Shown here in pieces: positions 5,442 to 58,171 of a stretch of DNA of 64,000 nucleotides; positions within the stretch are counted from its first letter, which is position 1; the number at the start of each line of letters is the position of its first letter. Made by a program: the position numbers and the translations under genes. The notes beneath the pieces are model-generated. The model worked only from the letters and a program-made list of their open reading frames with translations, ran no database searches and was not told where the DNA came from. The stretch is from the NCBI GenBank assembly GCA_945873815.1, contig CAMCEE010000001.1, positions 1 through 64,000 on the forward strand. Direction: 5' to 3'. This stretch comes from an uncultured Caryophanales bacterium (GTDB lineage: Bacteria > Bacillota_I > Bacilli_A > RFN20 > CAG-449).

Positions 5442-5524
5442 GAAAGTCGCAGCCATGGACTCCTTATACCAGTCAGATGAATCTGCTGTAGAGTGAAAAC
5501 AATGGTCTGCAACTTCTTCGTTTT
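5324..5524 (-). ncRNA. Candidate bridge-RNA region of the IS110 element
   Basis: This non-coding stretch lies upstream of the recombinase start, on the side where IS110-group elements encode the bridge RNA. Several short pairable segments occur (for example TTTCAC at about 5367 with GTGAAA at 5440 and 5493). I did not derive a convincing fold or identify guide loops, so this is a positional inference. The subterminal repeats are more typical of the IS1111 group, whose RNA is on the 3' side; then the candidate region would be about 3991-4118. Confidence 0.3.
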
Positions 5525-9430: not shown

Positions 9431-10533
9431 TTTCTCAATTCAAACGCAACACCTAGTAAGTGACTTATGTATTAAGTACTTCTAAAGGTGTTAAGTATTT
9501 ATTACATTTTCTAGGTCTATTATTTAATAAAGATAGATTATATGTCAATTCATCTATATCAACTTCTGATAAATCCATACTTTTAGGATAAAATTCACGT
9601 AATAACCCATTCGTATTTTCATTTGTCCCTTTTTGCCATGCACAATAAGGATCACAAAAATATGTGTTACAATGTAGTTCTTGTTCTATTTTTTCATATC
9701 CAGCAAACTCTTTCCCTCTGTCAAATGTTATTGTTTTGACTAACTCACTTGGAAAGTGCTTTAATGCTTCAATAATCGCTGGTGTGACATAACATTCTTT
9801 TCTACTAGGAACCTTAATTGCTATGTAGAAACGAGACTTTCTCTCTGCTAAAGTTACGAAACAAACAGAACTTTTTCTTGTATGATCATTTCTGCCGGAT
9901 TCAACGGTATCACCTTCCCAATGACCTAATTCTAATCTTTTATAAATGTCTTTTGGACGTTTCTTAATTGATCTGCTTGAGCTTACATTAAACTTACCTC
10001 TTGTTTCTGCCGGTCGTTTAAAATGACCTTTTCTTCTTAGTTGAATCATTTCGACTTTTGGTATTCTTTTATCGTGTATCATTCTATAAATGGTTGCCGT
10101 TGAAGGAATATTTAGATTTTCATTATCACATATTCTATGTGATATTTGTTCAGGTGACCATCGTAAATGTATTTTTTCTTTTATATATTCTATTACATTA
10201 TTGTCATTTATTTTATGCTTATGACATTCTTTTCGCCTGATATGATACTTTCGTTCTGCAACTTCAGGAAAATAAATCTTTGATATGCGATGTGAATTCT
10301 TTTTTATTTCTCTTGAAATGGTAGATGGAGAACGTTGTAATGCTTTTGCAATTTCTCGAATACTGAGTCCGGAATTTAAGAAATAATAGATACAACATCT
10401 CTCATCTATGTTAAGATGATTATAGCTCATATGTTTTGCCTCCGTTATATGCTTGTTTGGTCACTTACATATTAACATAAGTAAGACAATGAGTCTTTTT
10501 TTATTGGTGTTGCGTTTGAATTGAGAAATTATC
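9426..10533 (-). mobile_element. IS30-family insertion sequence (1108 bp)
   Basis: Perfect 28-bp terminal inverted repeats (9426-9453 and 10506-10533, inner part AATTCAAACGCAACACC) flank one intact transposase gene. No convincing 2-4 bp target duplication is visible. Different truncated genes abut the two sides, which fits an adjacent deletion after insertion. Confidence 0.88.
9465..10430 (-). CDS. IS30 family transposase
   Basis: A 321-residue transposase. The N-terminal helix-turn-helix ('LSIREIAKALQRSPSTISREIKKN') binds the ends. The catalytic DDE domain shows 'HWEGDTVES' (first Asp), 'ITFDRGKEF' (second Asp) and 'NENTNGLLREFYPKS' (Glu), the IS30 signature. It is full length and intact, and the element probably remains mobile. 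Confidence 0.95.
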   Translation of the reverse strand: MSYNHLNIDERCCIYYFLNSGLSIREIAKALQRSPSTISREIKKNSHRISKIYFPEVAERKYHIRRKECHKHKINDNNVIEYIKEKIHLRWSPEQISHRICDNENLNIPSTATIYRMIHDKRIPKVEMIQLRRKGHFKRPAETRGKFNVSSSRSIKKRPKDIYKRLELGHWEGDTVESGRNDHTRKSSVCFVTLAERKSRFYIAIKVPSRKECYVTPAIIEALKHFPSELVKTITFDRGKEFAGYEKIEQELHCNTYFCDPYCAWQKGTNENTNGLLREFYPKSMDLSEVDIDELTYNLSLLNNRPRKCNKYLTPLEVLNT

Positions 10534-11047
10534 CATTTTCATGATTCATAATGATTGCTTCAACCGATTGCCCTTTTTGTAGCAATGGTGATACGAGATT
10601 ATTTATTTTGTTAAATTTCTCATTAGATGTTTTGAGCATATTATGTGTTGAAGAATAGTTTTCATGATAATTGAGGGATGCATGATCGGCTTCATAATAA
10701 TATTGTAACTTTTTACAATTTCCGCGCTTACAACAAAAATTACAAACGAAAGGGTATTTTTTTAAGCATTGATTCCTTCCAGGTGAATAGTTAATGCAAT
10801 TATTTGGGCAATAAAACGAGCCTTTATTATTAGGACTTCTTTTTACGCATTCTTTAAAATGAATACACGATGTATGAACCCCAAATCTATCTTTATTAAC
10901 TGGATATGAATTTCTTAATATTTCACGATAGATTGTTTGTCTTGAAACACCTAATTCACTAGCAATTTCATCTAATGATGATTTCTCTTTTAATAGAGCT
11001 TCAATTTGACTTCTTTGAATTAAATTGAGTTGAGTAAACTTCTTCAT
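10529..11047 (-). pseudogene. Second IS30-family transposase, N-terminal fragment (172 aa)
   Basis: The helix-turn-helix ('SSLDEIASELGVSRQTIYREILRN') and a cysteine-rich zinc-binding region (several CxxC pairs, residues 61-110) match the N-terminal half of larger IS30-type transposases. The frame ends inside the right end of the 9426-10533 element, and the DDE domain is absent from the other side of that element. It is thus a fragment left by IS insertion plus deletion. Its ribosome binding site (AAGGAGG near 11058) remains. It is unlikely to be active but could bind its old ends. Confidence 0.8.
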
Positions 11048-11196
11048 AAACTAAACCTCCTTACAAATTGAAGAAGCTCAATTTCATTATACTAAATGTG
11101 ATTAAAGAATAAATGCAACGAAACGGATGAACTCCCTGTTCTTATTGTTGCATTTTGTTATTTAATTAACGATAAATTATATTTTTTATAAATATT

Positions 11197-11226
11197 TTGT
11201 AATGAGGTGAAATTTGCTGTTATAAT
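11197..11226 (+). promoter_or_regulatory. Likely promoter of the divIC gene
   Basis: TTGTAA (11197-11202), 18 bp, TATAAT (11221-11226). The GTG start at 11253 follows a GAGGGGG ribosome binding site. The 16 bases AGAGGGGGAAAACAAA before the start are identical to those before the 8963 gene. Confidence 0.5.
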
Positions 11227-11252
11227 AAAAATATAAAGAGGGGGAAAACAAA

Positions 11253-11516
11253 GTGAGCGCATTGCAAAGAAAGAAGAACAGAATTATTAGTTTTGTTTGC
11301 ATTGGATTTTTTGCTATGTCTTTTGTTATATCGGGGGTTATTGTTTCAAAATTAGTAAATACAATTGTTAATTACAACACTCTTCAGAAAATAAAAAATC
11401 AATTGATTGAAGAAAAAGAAAAACTTGAAGATGGTGAAGAAAAGGATTGTTTTACAGTATATGTAAAAGACGAATATACCTTAGATAATGGGGAAATATA
11501 TATTTTTAATAAATAA
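11253..11516 (+). CDS. divIC: DivIC/FtsB-like septum formation initiator
   Basis: 87 residues with one membrane segment (about residues 13-36), then a coiled-coil stretch ('LQKIKNQLIEEKEKLED') and the C-terminal 'VKDEYTLDNGEIYIF' typical of DivIC/FtsB. It acts in the FtsL-DivIC-DivIB complex that licenses septal wall synthesis. Its position directly upstream of a SpoIIE-like gene is the same as in Bacillus and supports the call. The start is GTG, with a GAGGGGG ribosome binding site 7 bp upstream. Confidence 0.8.
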   Translation: MSALQRKKNRIISFVCIGFFAMSFVISGVIVSKLVNTIVNYNTLQKIKNQLIEEKEKLEDGEEKDCFTVYVKDEYTLDNGEIYIFNK

Positions 11517-11546
11517 TATCAATTTTCGACTAAAAATGAATAGCGC

Positions 11547-11587
11547 AAAGTTCATACTTATTCTCGGGGGAGGTAAGTATGAACTTT
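11547..11587 (+). promoter_or_regulatory. Start-codon hairpin of the spoIIE-like gene
   Basis: AAAGTTCATACTTA (11547-11560) pairs perfectly with TAAGTATGAACTTT (11574-11587). The 13-nt loop (11561-11573) contains the GGGGGAGG ribosome binding site, and the ATG (11579-11581) lies inside the stem. T residues follow, so it could also act as a weak terminator. Translation of the gene is probably limited by opening of this stem. Confidence 0.7.
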
Positions 11588-13450
11588 TTCTTAACAAATT
11601 TGAAGAAACGCAATATCAGTATTACTCTCATTTTAAGAATATGCTTAGTGATTATGACTCTTTTCGTTATTCTTCAAAACCATGCTTTTATATTTAACCC
11701 CTTAATAATCGCACTTTGTAATACCTCATACTTATTTCCCTTTCCTCTTATTGTTATTGCTTATTCTTTGTATGTTATAACAGGACTAATAGTCAATGTA
11801 AATTATGGTTTAGAATTATTATTTATATGTATTCTTCATGGTATATTAACGCTTTTATCGAGTAATAAATCAAATAATAAAAGACTTAAAATAATGAGTT
11901 TTTCATTTCCTTTTATTATTGCGTTAATATATTGTTTTTTAGTGAAAAGTCCATCGGATTATATAAATCTTGGTATATCATTTATCGTATCTTTGCTTAT
12001 GTCATATATCATGAATAAATCCTTAGATGATTATATTAATAATGAGAAAATGAATGATACTTTTCTAGTAATCATCCTTATATTAATCCCAGTTACATTT
12101 CTTGGGCTAAGAAGTATTTCTTTTTTTATTACCGCTTTTTTGTATGCATCAATGATTAAAAGAAATCACCAAAAGGAAGTATTGATTTCTCTTTTTCCTT
12201 TACTTGCAATTGAGATGTATTATTATAATCTTCCGCCTTATCTATTAATCGCAGTATCGTCATCTTTTTTTGTGGGTTCGTTATTAAAAATAAGAAAATA
12301 CAATGAATTAATTATGGTTTTAATTTTCAGTATCTTTGCTGCGATATATGATCAAAAGTTCTATCTATTACAAGAGTATTATCAGGTTACAGGTGGCATT
12401 CTTATAACCTATTTCATTTCATATAAAGAAATAAAGAAAGAAAAAGAAAGCGATAGTAATAGATTAGATACGATTAAGGAGTTTTGTACTTTACTTGAAG
12501 ATAATAGATTCTCTCGATATACCGATTTAGAGAAAGTATTACTAAATGAAATAAAAGAAAGCATATGCTTAAAATGTACTAATAAAGAGAATTGTCATCT
12601 TTTACATAATAAAATCGTGTCTTCATATATTGATGATAAAACTAAAAAGGATATTGTTTCTGAATGTTTGTATTCATATCAAGTAATGAAAAAAATCTCA
12701 ATGCATAATCAATTGTTTTTTGACTTTAATACGAATGAATGTGCGATAAGTGAGAATAGAGTGAATCTTATTAAACCGTATTCTTTTATTAGGAAAATGG
12801 TGGAAAAGAAGGATGAAAATGAAGAATTTACAATCAATTTCAACTTGGAGATAGAATATATTTCACAGGGCTTTTCCGCGAAAAACGGGGATTCTTATGA
12901 ACTTGTTGAAATGAAGAATTACAAATATTTACTACTTAGTGATGGGATGGGACATACTAAAGAAAGCAATGATGTTTCTTCCTATCTTATATCTTTATGT
13001 AAGATTCTTCTTCCCTTTGAAAGTAACATTCATTTATTGCTTAAAGATGTAAATAAAATTATGTTATCTAAAACTTGTGAAGAGGTTTATGCTACTTTAG
13101 ATATTGGAAAATTTGATCTTGAAAATGGAAAAGTAGAACTTTATAAGTTAGGTTCTTTTTCCACTTACTTCATTCATAATAAGGTGGTTAAGGAATATAC
13201 TCCTTCCTTGCCTCCAATTGGAATTGTGAATAATTTTAAGGATAAAGCAGATACTATTTCTTTTCAAAAAGGCGATATCTTTATATTTATGACCGATGGC
13301 TTTGGAGATAATGTTAGTGATATTATATGTAATACTATTCAAAAATCCTCTTTTTTAAATATTCATAATTATACACGTTTTTTATTTAACAAGTTAAAAC
13401 TCAATAAATGCGATGATGATAAAACGATTATTGGAATTAAAATTAGATGA
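11579..13450 (+). CDS. spoIIE: SpoIIE-like membrane PP2C phosphatase
   Basis: 623 residues. The first 285 or so form about ten hydrophobic segments. A linker with a cysteine cluster follows ('CLKCTNKENC', Cys330/333/339), a SpoIIE feature. The C-terminal half is a PP2C-type serine phosphatase with 'LSDGMGHT' (near residue 455) and the late 'DDDKT' metal-binding motif (612-616). SpoIIE dephosphorylates SpoIIAA to switch on sigma-F in the forespore and also acts at the polar septum. It is somewhat shorter than Bacillus SpoIIE (about 827). Its place between divIC and tilS matches Bacillus order and makes a generic PP2C protein unlikely. Start and ribosome binding site lie in a hairpin. Confidence 0.85.
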   Translation: MNFFLTNLKKRNISITLILRICLVIMTLFVILQNHAFIFNPLIIALCNTSYLFPFPLIVIAYSLYVITGLIVNVNYGLELLFICILHGILTLLSSNKSNNKRLKIMSFSFPFIIALIYCFLVKSPSDYINLGISFIVSLLMSYIMNKSLDDYINNEKMNDTFLVIILILIPVTFLGLRSISFFITAFLYASMIKRNHQKEVLISLFPLLAIEMYYYNLPPYLLIAVSSSFFVGSLLKIRKYNELIMVLIFSIFAAIYDQKFYLLQEYYQVTGGILITYFISYKEIKKEKESDSNRLDTIKEFCTLLEDNRFSRYTDLEKVLLNEIKESICLKCTNKENCHLLHNKIVSSYIDDKTKKDIVSECLYSYQVMKKISMHNQLFFDFNTNECAISENRVNLIKPYSFIRKMVEKKDENEEFTINFNLEIEYISQGFSAKNGDSYELVEMKNYKYLLLSDGMGHTKESNDVSSYLISLCKILLPFESNIHLLLKDVNKIMLSKTCEEVYATLDIGKFDLENGKVELYKLGSFSTYFIHNKVVKEYTPSLPPIGIVNNFKDKADTISFQKGDIFIFMTDGFGDNVSDIICNTIQKSSFLNIHNYTRFLFNKLKLNKCDDDKTIIGIKIR

Positions 13451-52159: not shown

Positions 52160-52213
52160 TTATTCGATGTATAAAATTTTGATTTATGGCAAAACTTAAA
52201 TTGAGGTGAAAAC

Positions 52214-52882
52214 ATGGATCAAAATAAGCAAATAAAACCTTGGCCTCTTGAAGCTAAAACCGGTCTTGCACTTTCTTTAGCAGCCACAGTCGTTATTGGT
52301 GGAGTTCTCATATTTGGGAGAAATAAAGATTATGTAAGTACTGATAGTAATGGGACAAGTGTCACAAACTATTCAAGCAATGTAAACGAGAATAATAATA
52401 GTGAAAAAGTAGTTGATGAGAAAATCGAATTACTTCAAAAACCATATCAAGTTAATGCGAAGATTGCTCGACATTTCTTTGATATTAATGATGATATTGA
52501 AACTAGAACTCATGCGGTTGTTCAAATTCCAAATAAGCAATCAACTTTCATTAAAAGCGTTGGAGTTGATTATCATTTAGATGGTTCATCGTTTGATGTT
52601 CTTGCGGCTTGTTCTGGAATTGTAAAAGAAAGAATAAATGATGCAACTTATGGGAATTTATTACTAATCGAACATGATAGTGGATTGCAAACCGTATATT
52701 CCTCTTTAGAATCATTTAATGTAGTTAAGGGAAATGAAGTTAAGCAAGGACAAGTGATTGGAAGAGCAGGAAACTCTTTATATACTAGTGAAATAGGTGT
52801 CTGTTTACATTTTGAGATTATGAAAAATGGAAAGCATATCAATCCAGAAAAATCGTATACTCTTGAAGTGAAAGCGATATAA
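52214..52882 (+). CDS. spoIIQ: SpoIIQ-like LytM/M23 domain protein, catalytic residues replaced
   Basis: 222 residues. One membrane helix (about 17-34) is followed by an Asn/Ser-rich linker and an M23 (LytM) domain from about 85. 'SVGVDYHLDGSSFDVLAACSGIV' and 'YGNLLLIEHDSGLQTVYSSLES...GQVIGRAGNS...CLHFEIMKNG' match SpoIIQ closely. In active LytM enzymes zinc is held by His and Asp in HxGxD and by HxH. Here the first His is Ser115 and the HxH is Cys197-Leu-His199, so peptidase activity is unlikely. SpoIIQ with SpoIIIAH forms the channel between forespore and mother cell. The Ser change resembles Bacillus SpoIIQ, as I recall. A generic M23 protein is the alternative. Confidence 0.75.
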   Translation: MDQNKQIKPWPLEAKTGLALSLAATVVIGGVLIFGRNKDYVSTDSNGTSVTNYSSNVNENNNSEKVVDEKIELLQKPYQVNAKIARHFFDINDDIETRTHAVVQIPNKQSTFIKSVGVDYHLDGSSFDVLAACSGIVKERINDATYGNLLLIEHDSGLQTVYSSLESFNVVKGNEVKQGQVIGRAGNSLYTSEIGVCLHFEIMKNGKHINPEKSYTLEVKAI

Positions 52883-57701: not shown

Positions 57702-57739
57702 TAACTAAGTTTTATATAATGTATTTCGAGGTGGTAATC

Positions 57740-58171
57740 TTGAAATGCACTACAATAATAGGCGATGAACACGAAGAAGAAGTGTATATATATTCGAAGG
57801 AAAGATCGTCTTTAGTAATAGAAATTGAACGTTTAGTAGAAAGCAATAATCATACAATAAGAGGAGTTAACGATGAAGAAAGAATCATAGTTAATCCTCT
57901 TGATGTATGTTGTTTTGTTTCTGATAATAATAAGGTGTTTGCTTTAATTGATGATAATAAGTATCAAGTTAAGGATAAATTGTATCAACTTGTGGAAAGT
58001 TTGAATGATAACTTTATTAAGATTAACCAATCATGCATTGCGAATATCAAGAAAATGGATAGGTTTAAAACCTCAATCGGAGGAGCAGTCTTAGTAGTGT
58101 TTGAGAATGGATATGAAGATTACATTTCACGTAGAGAATTAAAAAAGGTTAAAGAAAGGTTGGGATTATAA
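57740..58171 (+). CDS. LytTR-domain DNA-binding regulator
   Basis: About 143 residues from TTG 57740, the best start because CGAGGTGG (57728-57735) is 4-5 bp upstream; an ATG at 57719 lies before that site. The C-terminal LytTR domain ('VNPLDVCCFVSDNNKVFALIDDNKYQVKDKLYQLVESLNDNFIKINQSCIANIKKM') binds DNA repeats. No receiver domain is present, so activity is probably set by the DUF3021 membrane partner, a known pair (LytTR regulatory systems). It probably controls the preceding exporter. Confidence 0.88.
   Translation: MKCTTIIGDEHEEEVYIYSKERSSLVIEIERLVESNNHTIRGVNDEERIIVNPLDVCCFVSDNNKVFALIDDNKYQVKDKLYQLVESLNDNFIKINQSCIANIKKMDRFKTSIGGAVLVVFENGYEDYISRRELKKVKERLGL

Follow-up and report, generated by a model that had tools for sequence, protein, structure and literature searches.

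The start of spoIIE in the analysed window, a 64,000-nucleotide stretch of DNA, is enclosed in a perfect hairpin that probably acts as a translational insulator: it would shut the RNA that reads through from the divIC-like gene upstream and would be absent from spoIIE's own transcript. Polymerase reading through from the divIC-like gene would yield an RNA with both arms, in which the spoIIE SD and ATG would be shut and from which little SpoIIE would be made during growth. When sporulation begins, Spo0A~P would switch on the spoIIE promoter, whose -10 is predicted to be built into the 5' arm. The sporulation transcript would then begin in the loop (~11565) without the 5' arm, and this short transcript, with an open SD and a ~14-nt leader, would be translated. 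Spo0A binding, the actual transcription start site (TSS), read-through, and repression are the steps that we infer. The table lists the sequence features.

Features of the spoIIE and spoIIQ starts in the window
Feature	Position	Strand	Basis and remarks
5' arm of spoIIE hairpin, AAAGTTCATACTTA	11547-11560	+	Sequence, folding; unique in genome
Loop, 13 nt, TTCTCGGGGGAGG	11561-11573	+	Sequence, folding; SD GGGGGAGG at 11566-11573
3' arm, TAAGTATGAACTTT	11574-11587	+	Sequence, folding; holds spoIIE ATG 11579-11581
Putative Spo0A site, box-like TTCGACT	11525-11531	+	Sequence; matching box-to--10 distance in relatives
Predicted -10 of spoIIE promoter, CATACT	11553-11558	+	Within 5' arm; 22 nt past box, as in relatives
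Predicted TSS region, ~11565	11563-11567	+	In hairpin loop; placed 7 nt past -10
spoIIE (called from sequence)	11579-13450	+	PF07228 above cut-off; gene order
divIC-like gene, 87 aa, presumed read-through source	11253-11516	+	Position; 41% identity to G002 counterpart
Promoter-like TTGTAA-18-TATAAT, TG before -10, ahead of divIC-like gene	11197-11226	+	Consensus scan, 10/12 matches
spoIIQ-start element	52169-52225	+	Fold; 13-bp stem 52176-52188 with 52213-52225; ATG in 3' arm, SD in loop
sigma-F-like GTATA-14-GGCAAAACT at spoIIQ	52169-52196	+	Sequence

Direct reading bore out the geometry described in the sequence-only reading: all 14 base pairs form between the two arms (14/14), the loop contains the SD, and the ATG falls within the 3' arm. 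In addition, folding revealed a small CUC/GAG helix within the loop, so that the SD is partly paired too, and gave a minimum free energy of -20.3 kcal/mol for the 41-nt hairpin; this and the other folding energies are model values. From 30 dinucleotide shuffles of the whole window, 0.067 perfect 14-bp stems with a loop of 3-20 nt were expected per window, and two were observed, the spoIIE hairpin and a palindrome at 5523. With 30 nt of upstream sequence, the cost of opening the spoIIE ribosome binding site (RBS) was 17.9, against a null of 6.7 ± 1.8, and 0 of 2000 shuffles reached it (p = 0.0005, the floor of 2000 shuffles). In the same finer run with 60 nt upstream, a single shuffle in 2000 reached the native value (p = 0.001). 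Moreover, none of the other gene starts among the 44 that were scored for the window had an opening cost as high as that of spoIIE. The hairpin at the spoIIE start is thus confirmed as real and beyond chance.

The ORF that begins in the 3' arm is spoIIE as judged from its SpoIIE phosphatase domain and the gene order divIC-spoIIE-tilS-ftsH, in keeping with the earlier spoIIE-like call. PF07228 scored 61 bits versus a cut-off of 25. TIGR02865 matched at 8e-28 (96.9 bits), under its curated cut-off of 490.8; this cut-off was reached by none of the 394 genomes of the class, indicating that the model is tuned to Bacillus-type proteins. Downstream of spoIIE lie tilS, ftsH, dus, and lysS. The divIC-like gene, co-directional and 62 nt ahead of spoIIE, was named by its position; no Pfam model matched its protein above cut-off. 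Its positional counterpart in the relative G002 shares 41% identity with it, and the order there, determined partly by inspection, is mfd, AbrB-like, S4-like, yabP, one ORF, divIC-like, spoIIE, and tilS. Two IS30-type transposase ORFs on the minus strand (9465-11047) lie immediately ahead of the divIC-like gene in the window, at the place where G002 has yabP and another ORF. The promoter-like site ahead of the divIC-like gene came from a consensus scan whose sites were no commoner in the window than in shuffles.

The consensus of the Spo0A box is TTCGACA. In upstream regions of relatives taken from the family, order, and class, a layout consisting of a TTCGACA-like box, ~22 nt, and a -10-like hexamer was called in 78 regions. 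The first layout caller, restricted to spacings of 21-23 and slightly favoring 22, gave a spacing of 22 in 65 regions. When spacings of 14-30 were allowed with no preference, 22 was best in 44 of 71 regions versus ~5% of shuffles, and in families f1 and f4 combined it was best in 9/15 regions. The box-22-TATAAT layout was also present in B. coahuilensis, where no clear hairpin was seen by eye. All TSS positions are predictions, set at 7 nt past the -10 throughout; the predicted spoIIE leaders are usually 9-17 nt long in the window's family and f25, and 24-30 nt in f14. Since the predicted -10 of the window lies within the 5' arm, the predicted TSS falls in the loop, and the 5' arms of the duplexes listed for relatives likewise reach no further than the predicted TSS, in a search that permitted up to 3 nt beyond it. 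The CATACT hexamer of the window is a poor -10. In f14 (L161-L167), the SD pairs with an anti-SD stretch (TCTCTCCC or similar) located ahead of the Spo0A-like box, which would place the promoter as a whole within a loop of ~60-70 nt.

The predicted start bears on the possibility of a regulated switch carried by the main spoIIE transcript, namely a thermosensor or a stem opened by a protein or small RNA, with the TSS upstream of 11547. The stem covers the start codon exactly, and the RBS hairpin of B. subtilis sigG, located in its own transcript, dampens translation 2-4-fold (PMC5942855). However, the predicted TSS lies past the 5' arm, folding in silico at temperatures up to 60 °C left the start codon >99% paired, and at 60 °C the ATG had an unpaired probability of 0.0045 and opening the RBS still cost ~12 kcal/mol, so the suggested temperature sensitivity was not supported. 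Nor was protein sensitivity, given that the stem sequence is not conserved and that a search without mismatch found no perfect copy of the hairpin arm elsewhere in the genome. Furthermore, Rfam covariance models gave 0 matches up to E=1 across 11000-12200, which ruled out a known RNA family as well. We therefore regard a regulated switch as unlikely. What stands of the originally proposed translational control element is control of translation itself, supported by relatives that keep the RBS pairing, without the temperature or protein switch. A TSS downstream of 11560, which had been named as refuting the element, is predicted by the promoter layout; it would refute control in the main transcript and fits a hairpin confined to read-through RNA.

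The nearest spoIIE relatives of the window are ~38% identical in protein, so the stems of different species are not alignable base by base, and shuffle and swap tests were used instead of pair-by-pair covariation counting. The relatives of the window organism are assemblies from gut metagenomes that carry the labels Erysipelotrichaceae, Bacillales, or Bacilli. Their stem sequences are unrelated, yet pairing over the RBS is kept, and several of the pairings include G-U pairs. In the shuffle test, the energy to open -14 to +3 with 60 nt upstream of the predicted TSS was compared with that after 200 shuffles of those 60 nt alone. The window spoIIE required 16.8 kcal/mol versus 7.3 ± 1.6, and in the TSS-derived transcript its opening cost was 3.4 kcal/mol; this difference between 16.8 with upstream sequence and 3.4 without supports the insulator. 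In f1, 8 of 13 genes reached p<0.05 (Fisher 8e-7, somewhat inflated because G009, G012, and G015 are near-identical), and occlusion was weak in the members G004, G006, and G017. Among other families, the Fisher values were 1e-4 for f25, 0.001 for f14, 0.006 for f4, 0.008 for f20, and 0.17 for f8; f12 (0.21) and f27 (0.70) gave no signal.

In the swap test, the upstream part of one species was placed before the RBS of another, which keeps motifs and composition and breaks co-evolved pairing; near-duplicates were removed. None of 60 swaps reached the native value of the window. The Fisher values were 7e-5 for f1, 0.002 for f25, and 3e-6 for all 61 genes, marking the occlusion as species-specific, although kinship among species means that these and the shuffle-test values overstate independence and that the combined p is somewhat optimistic. 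No swap signal was seen in f20, f12, and f27, and the shuffle signal of f20 may therefore come from something common within that family. In the proposed comparison with relatives, the stem sequence was not conserved, and the pairing over the RBS was kept in the f1 shuffle and swap tests and not in f12 and f27.

As a control, 86 gene starts from the window and eleven relative loci were scored with a pseudo-TSS at -14. The median opening cost was 12.7 kcal/mol for the 10 spoIIE starts versus 4.3 for the 76 others (Mann-Whitney 4e-6), and the median shuffle p was 0.045 versus 0.58. Throughout the analysis, start codons were picked partly by SD strength. The only non-spoIIE controls at p<0.05 were the window starts at 52214 and 57740. 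Occlusion of the RBS by upstream sequence is widespread in the class and not universal. Three genomes of genus g2 of the family (G008, G011, and G014) gave no match to the full spoIIE, spoIIQ, and spoIIAA queries, which suggests that sporulation was lost in this genus. Among viral contigs, no spoIIE relatives were found. Weak order-level matches following an antagonist-like gene had, by eye, the look of RsbU-type phosphatases and not of SpoIIE, and were left out.

These comparisons also make it improbable that the structure arose by chance and is non-functional in this species. The AT-rich DNA and the relatives and families with weak or no occlusion would accord with such an origin, but the small number of such stems expected per window, a p of ~0.001 or less for the window alone, and the family-wide and swap signals argue against it. 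Even less probable is a DNA operator, in which a dimeric repressor would bind the inverted repeat around the start site: the repeat does overlap the predicted -10, but its arms are unique in the genome, which also rules out a repeated operator or an IS end, the stem sequences vary among relatives, and the G-U pairs would be needless in a DNA palindrome.

Scans of the window found no terminator between the divIC-like gene and spoIIE. In 8 of 13 f1 genomes, a terminator-like hairpin lies ahead of spoIIE, formed by Spo0A-like boxes as an inverted repeat and followed by a T-run, so that read-through may be small there. At L036, L005, L006, L028, and L040-L043, the terminator-like hairpin overlaps the presumed Spo0A sites past the divIC-like gene. 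The window, G005, and G010 are without such a hairpin and have the three top opening costs (16.8, 16.8, and 14.2); G004 and G013 likewise have none, but their opening costs are 5.9 and 10.5. That the start hairpin itself terminates the divIC-like transcript is the least likely reading. In its favor, the stem leads into TTTTTCTT, and no other terminator is present at this place in the window. However, the stem is AU-rich with the T-run partly within it, the terminator scan was empty at the hairpin, a separate terminator lies further upstream in relatives, and a T-run was, by eye, generally absent after the start hairpins of relatives.

The translational insulator is favored by what was computed directly, namely the hairpin, the recurring promoter layout, and the beyond-chance RBS occlusion that sequence ahead of the predicted TSS causes in relatives. 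It is further supported by the shuffle, swap, and control-gene results, the lack of a terminator, the likeness of spoIIQ, and the precedents of T4 gene e and sigG. Against it stand f12 and f27 without signal, f20 without swap signal, the weak members of f1, the terminator-like hairpins in 8 of the 13 f1 genomes, the poor CATACT, and a TSS that is predicted.

A similar arrangement was found at the start of spoIIQ (52214-52882), which matched NCBIfam SpoIIQ at 2e-39 (sub-cut-off) and PDB 3tuf SpoIIQ at 9e-22. Its 13-bp stem includes two G-U pairs, and its GTATA-14-GGCAAAACT motif, which we take to fit the sigma-F consensus, is placed so that the 5' arm lies upstream of the expected start. The occlusion p was at the floor in the window, with a Fisher value of 4e-6 in f1, and the spoIIQ starts of G005 and G010 gave the same picture by eye. 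Hairpins over the sigG RBS were also seen by eye in several family genomes. For spoIIAA, p was 0.02 in the window genome and the family Fisher value 0.048, so that it did not hold up across the family and was not counted as a further example. In a wider scan of 285 further gene starts from ~400 kb of genome, in stretches that were not randomly chosen, 6% of starts were at p<=0.05. The top list held spoIIAA and spoIVB alongside a channel, a permease, an alcohol dehydrogenase, and a transposase, indicating that RBS occlusion alone is no marker of sporulation genes and that a general rule is no more than a possibility. The spoIVB start (L261:2200-2330, G000 C9) had the highest opening cost of the 285, with a long helix whose 5' arm includes the SD; as the 3' arm lies inside the coding region, the geometry is different, and it was not counted. 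At 57705-57760, a LytTR-regulator gene with a TTG start at 57740 has a hairpin over its SD and TATAAT directly ahead of the 5' arm, which may represent this design at a gene outside sporulation.

We tentatively propose, with more doubt than confidence, a design rule for the Bacilli lineage, in which sporulation genes behind vegetative genes would have their sporulation promoter located within an RBS-closing hairpin or between its arms (Spo0A-type at spoIIE, sigma-F at spoIIQ, and sigma-F/G at sigG). A change of TSS would then be a translational on-switch, and the arms would drift while their pairing is kept. SpoIIE activates sigma-F. Vegetative cells can activate sigma-F when SpoIIE is made artificially together with other changes (PMC4714977), which makes leaky expression from the neighbouring division gene a plausible hazard. 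If true, insulation by the hairpin would account for a sporulation gene directly following a growth gene with no terminator in between, and translation of spoIIE would occur only once sporulation has been ordered. Moreover, the T4/sigG mechanism would become testable over a whole order, and a promoter inside an RBS-closing stem could serve as a search signature for more such genes.

A full-text literature search, with subscription papers mostly outside its reach, did not turn up a report of this kind of element at spoIIE. By analogy, the spoIIE hairpin appears to be a further case of a logic known from gene e of phage T4 and proposed for sigG of B. subtilis. In T4 gene e (also soc, 49, and I-TevI), the SD and/or AUG is closed in long read-through RNA; the DNA that encodes the 5' strand contains the late promoter of gene e, so that late transcripts are without that strand and are translated, and the long early ones are silent (PMC3014915). 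The spoIIE start would share both the closure in long RNA and, as predicted, a promoter of its own within the 5'-strand DNA, whereas it differs in having a Spo0A-type bacterial promoter and computed evidence only, compared with a phage late promoter and a demonstrated ~100-fold effect. RNA thermometers also hold the SD or AUG in a stem, but the spoIIE stem stays shut over the temperatures folded in silico. The small RBS hairpin of B. subtilis sigG likewise occludes the RBS of a sporulation gene (2-4-fold dampening, PMC5942855), but it lies in the gene's own transcript, where the spoIIE hairpin would not. The large hairpin of spoIIG-sigG, of 20+ bp, is proposed to block translation of read-through RNA and cannot form in the PsigG transcript (PMC5942855). 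As at spoIIE, a sporulation gene there follows another transcription unit and a hairpin would act against read-through RNA; in contrast to the sigma-F/G promoter of sigG, that of spoIIE would be Spo0A-type with the -10 itself in the 5' arm, and the class-wide comparison of such hairpins is new relative to the sigG case.
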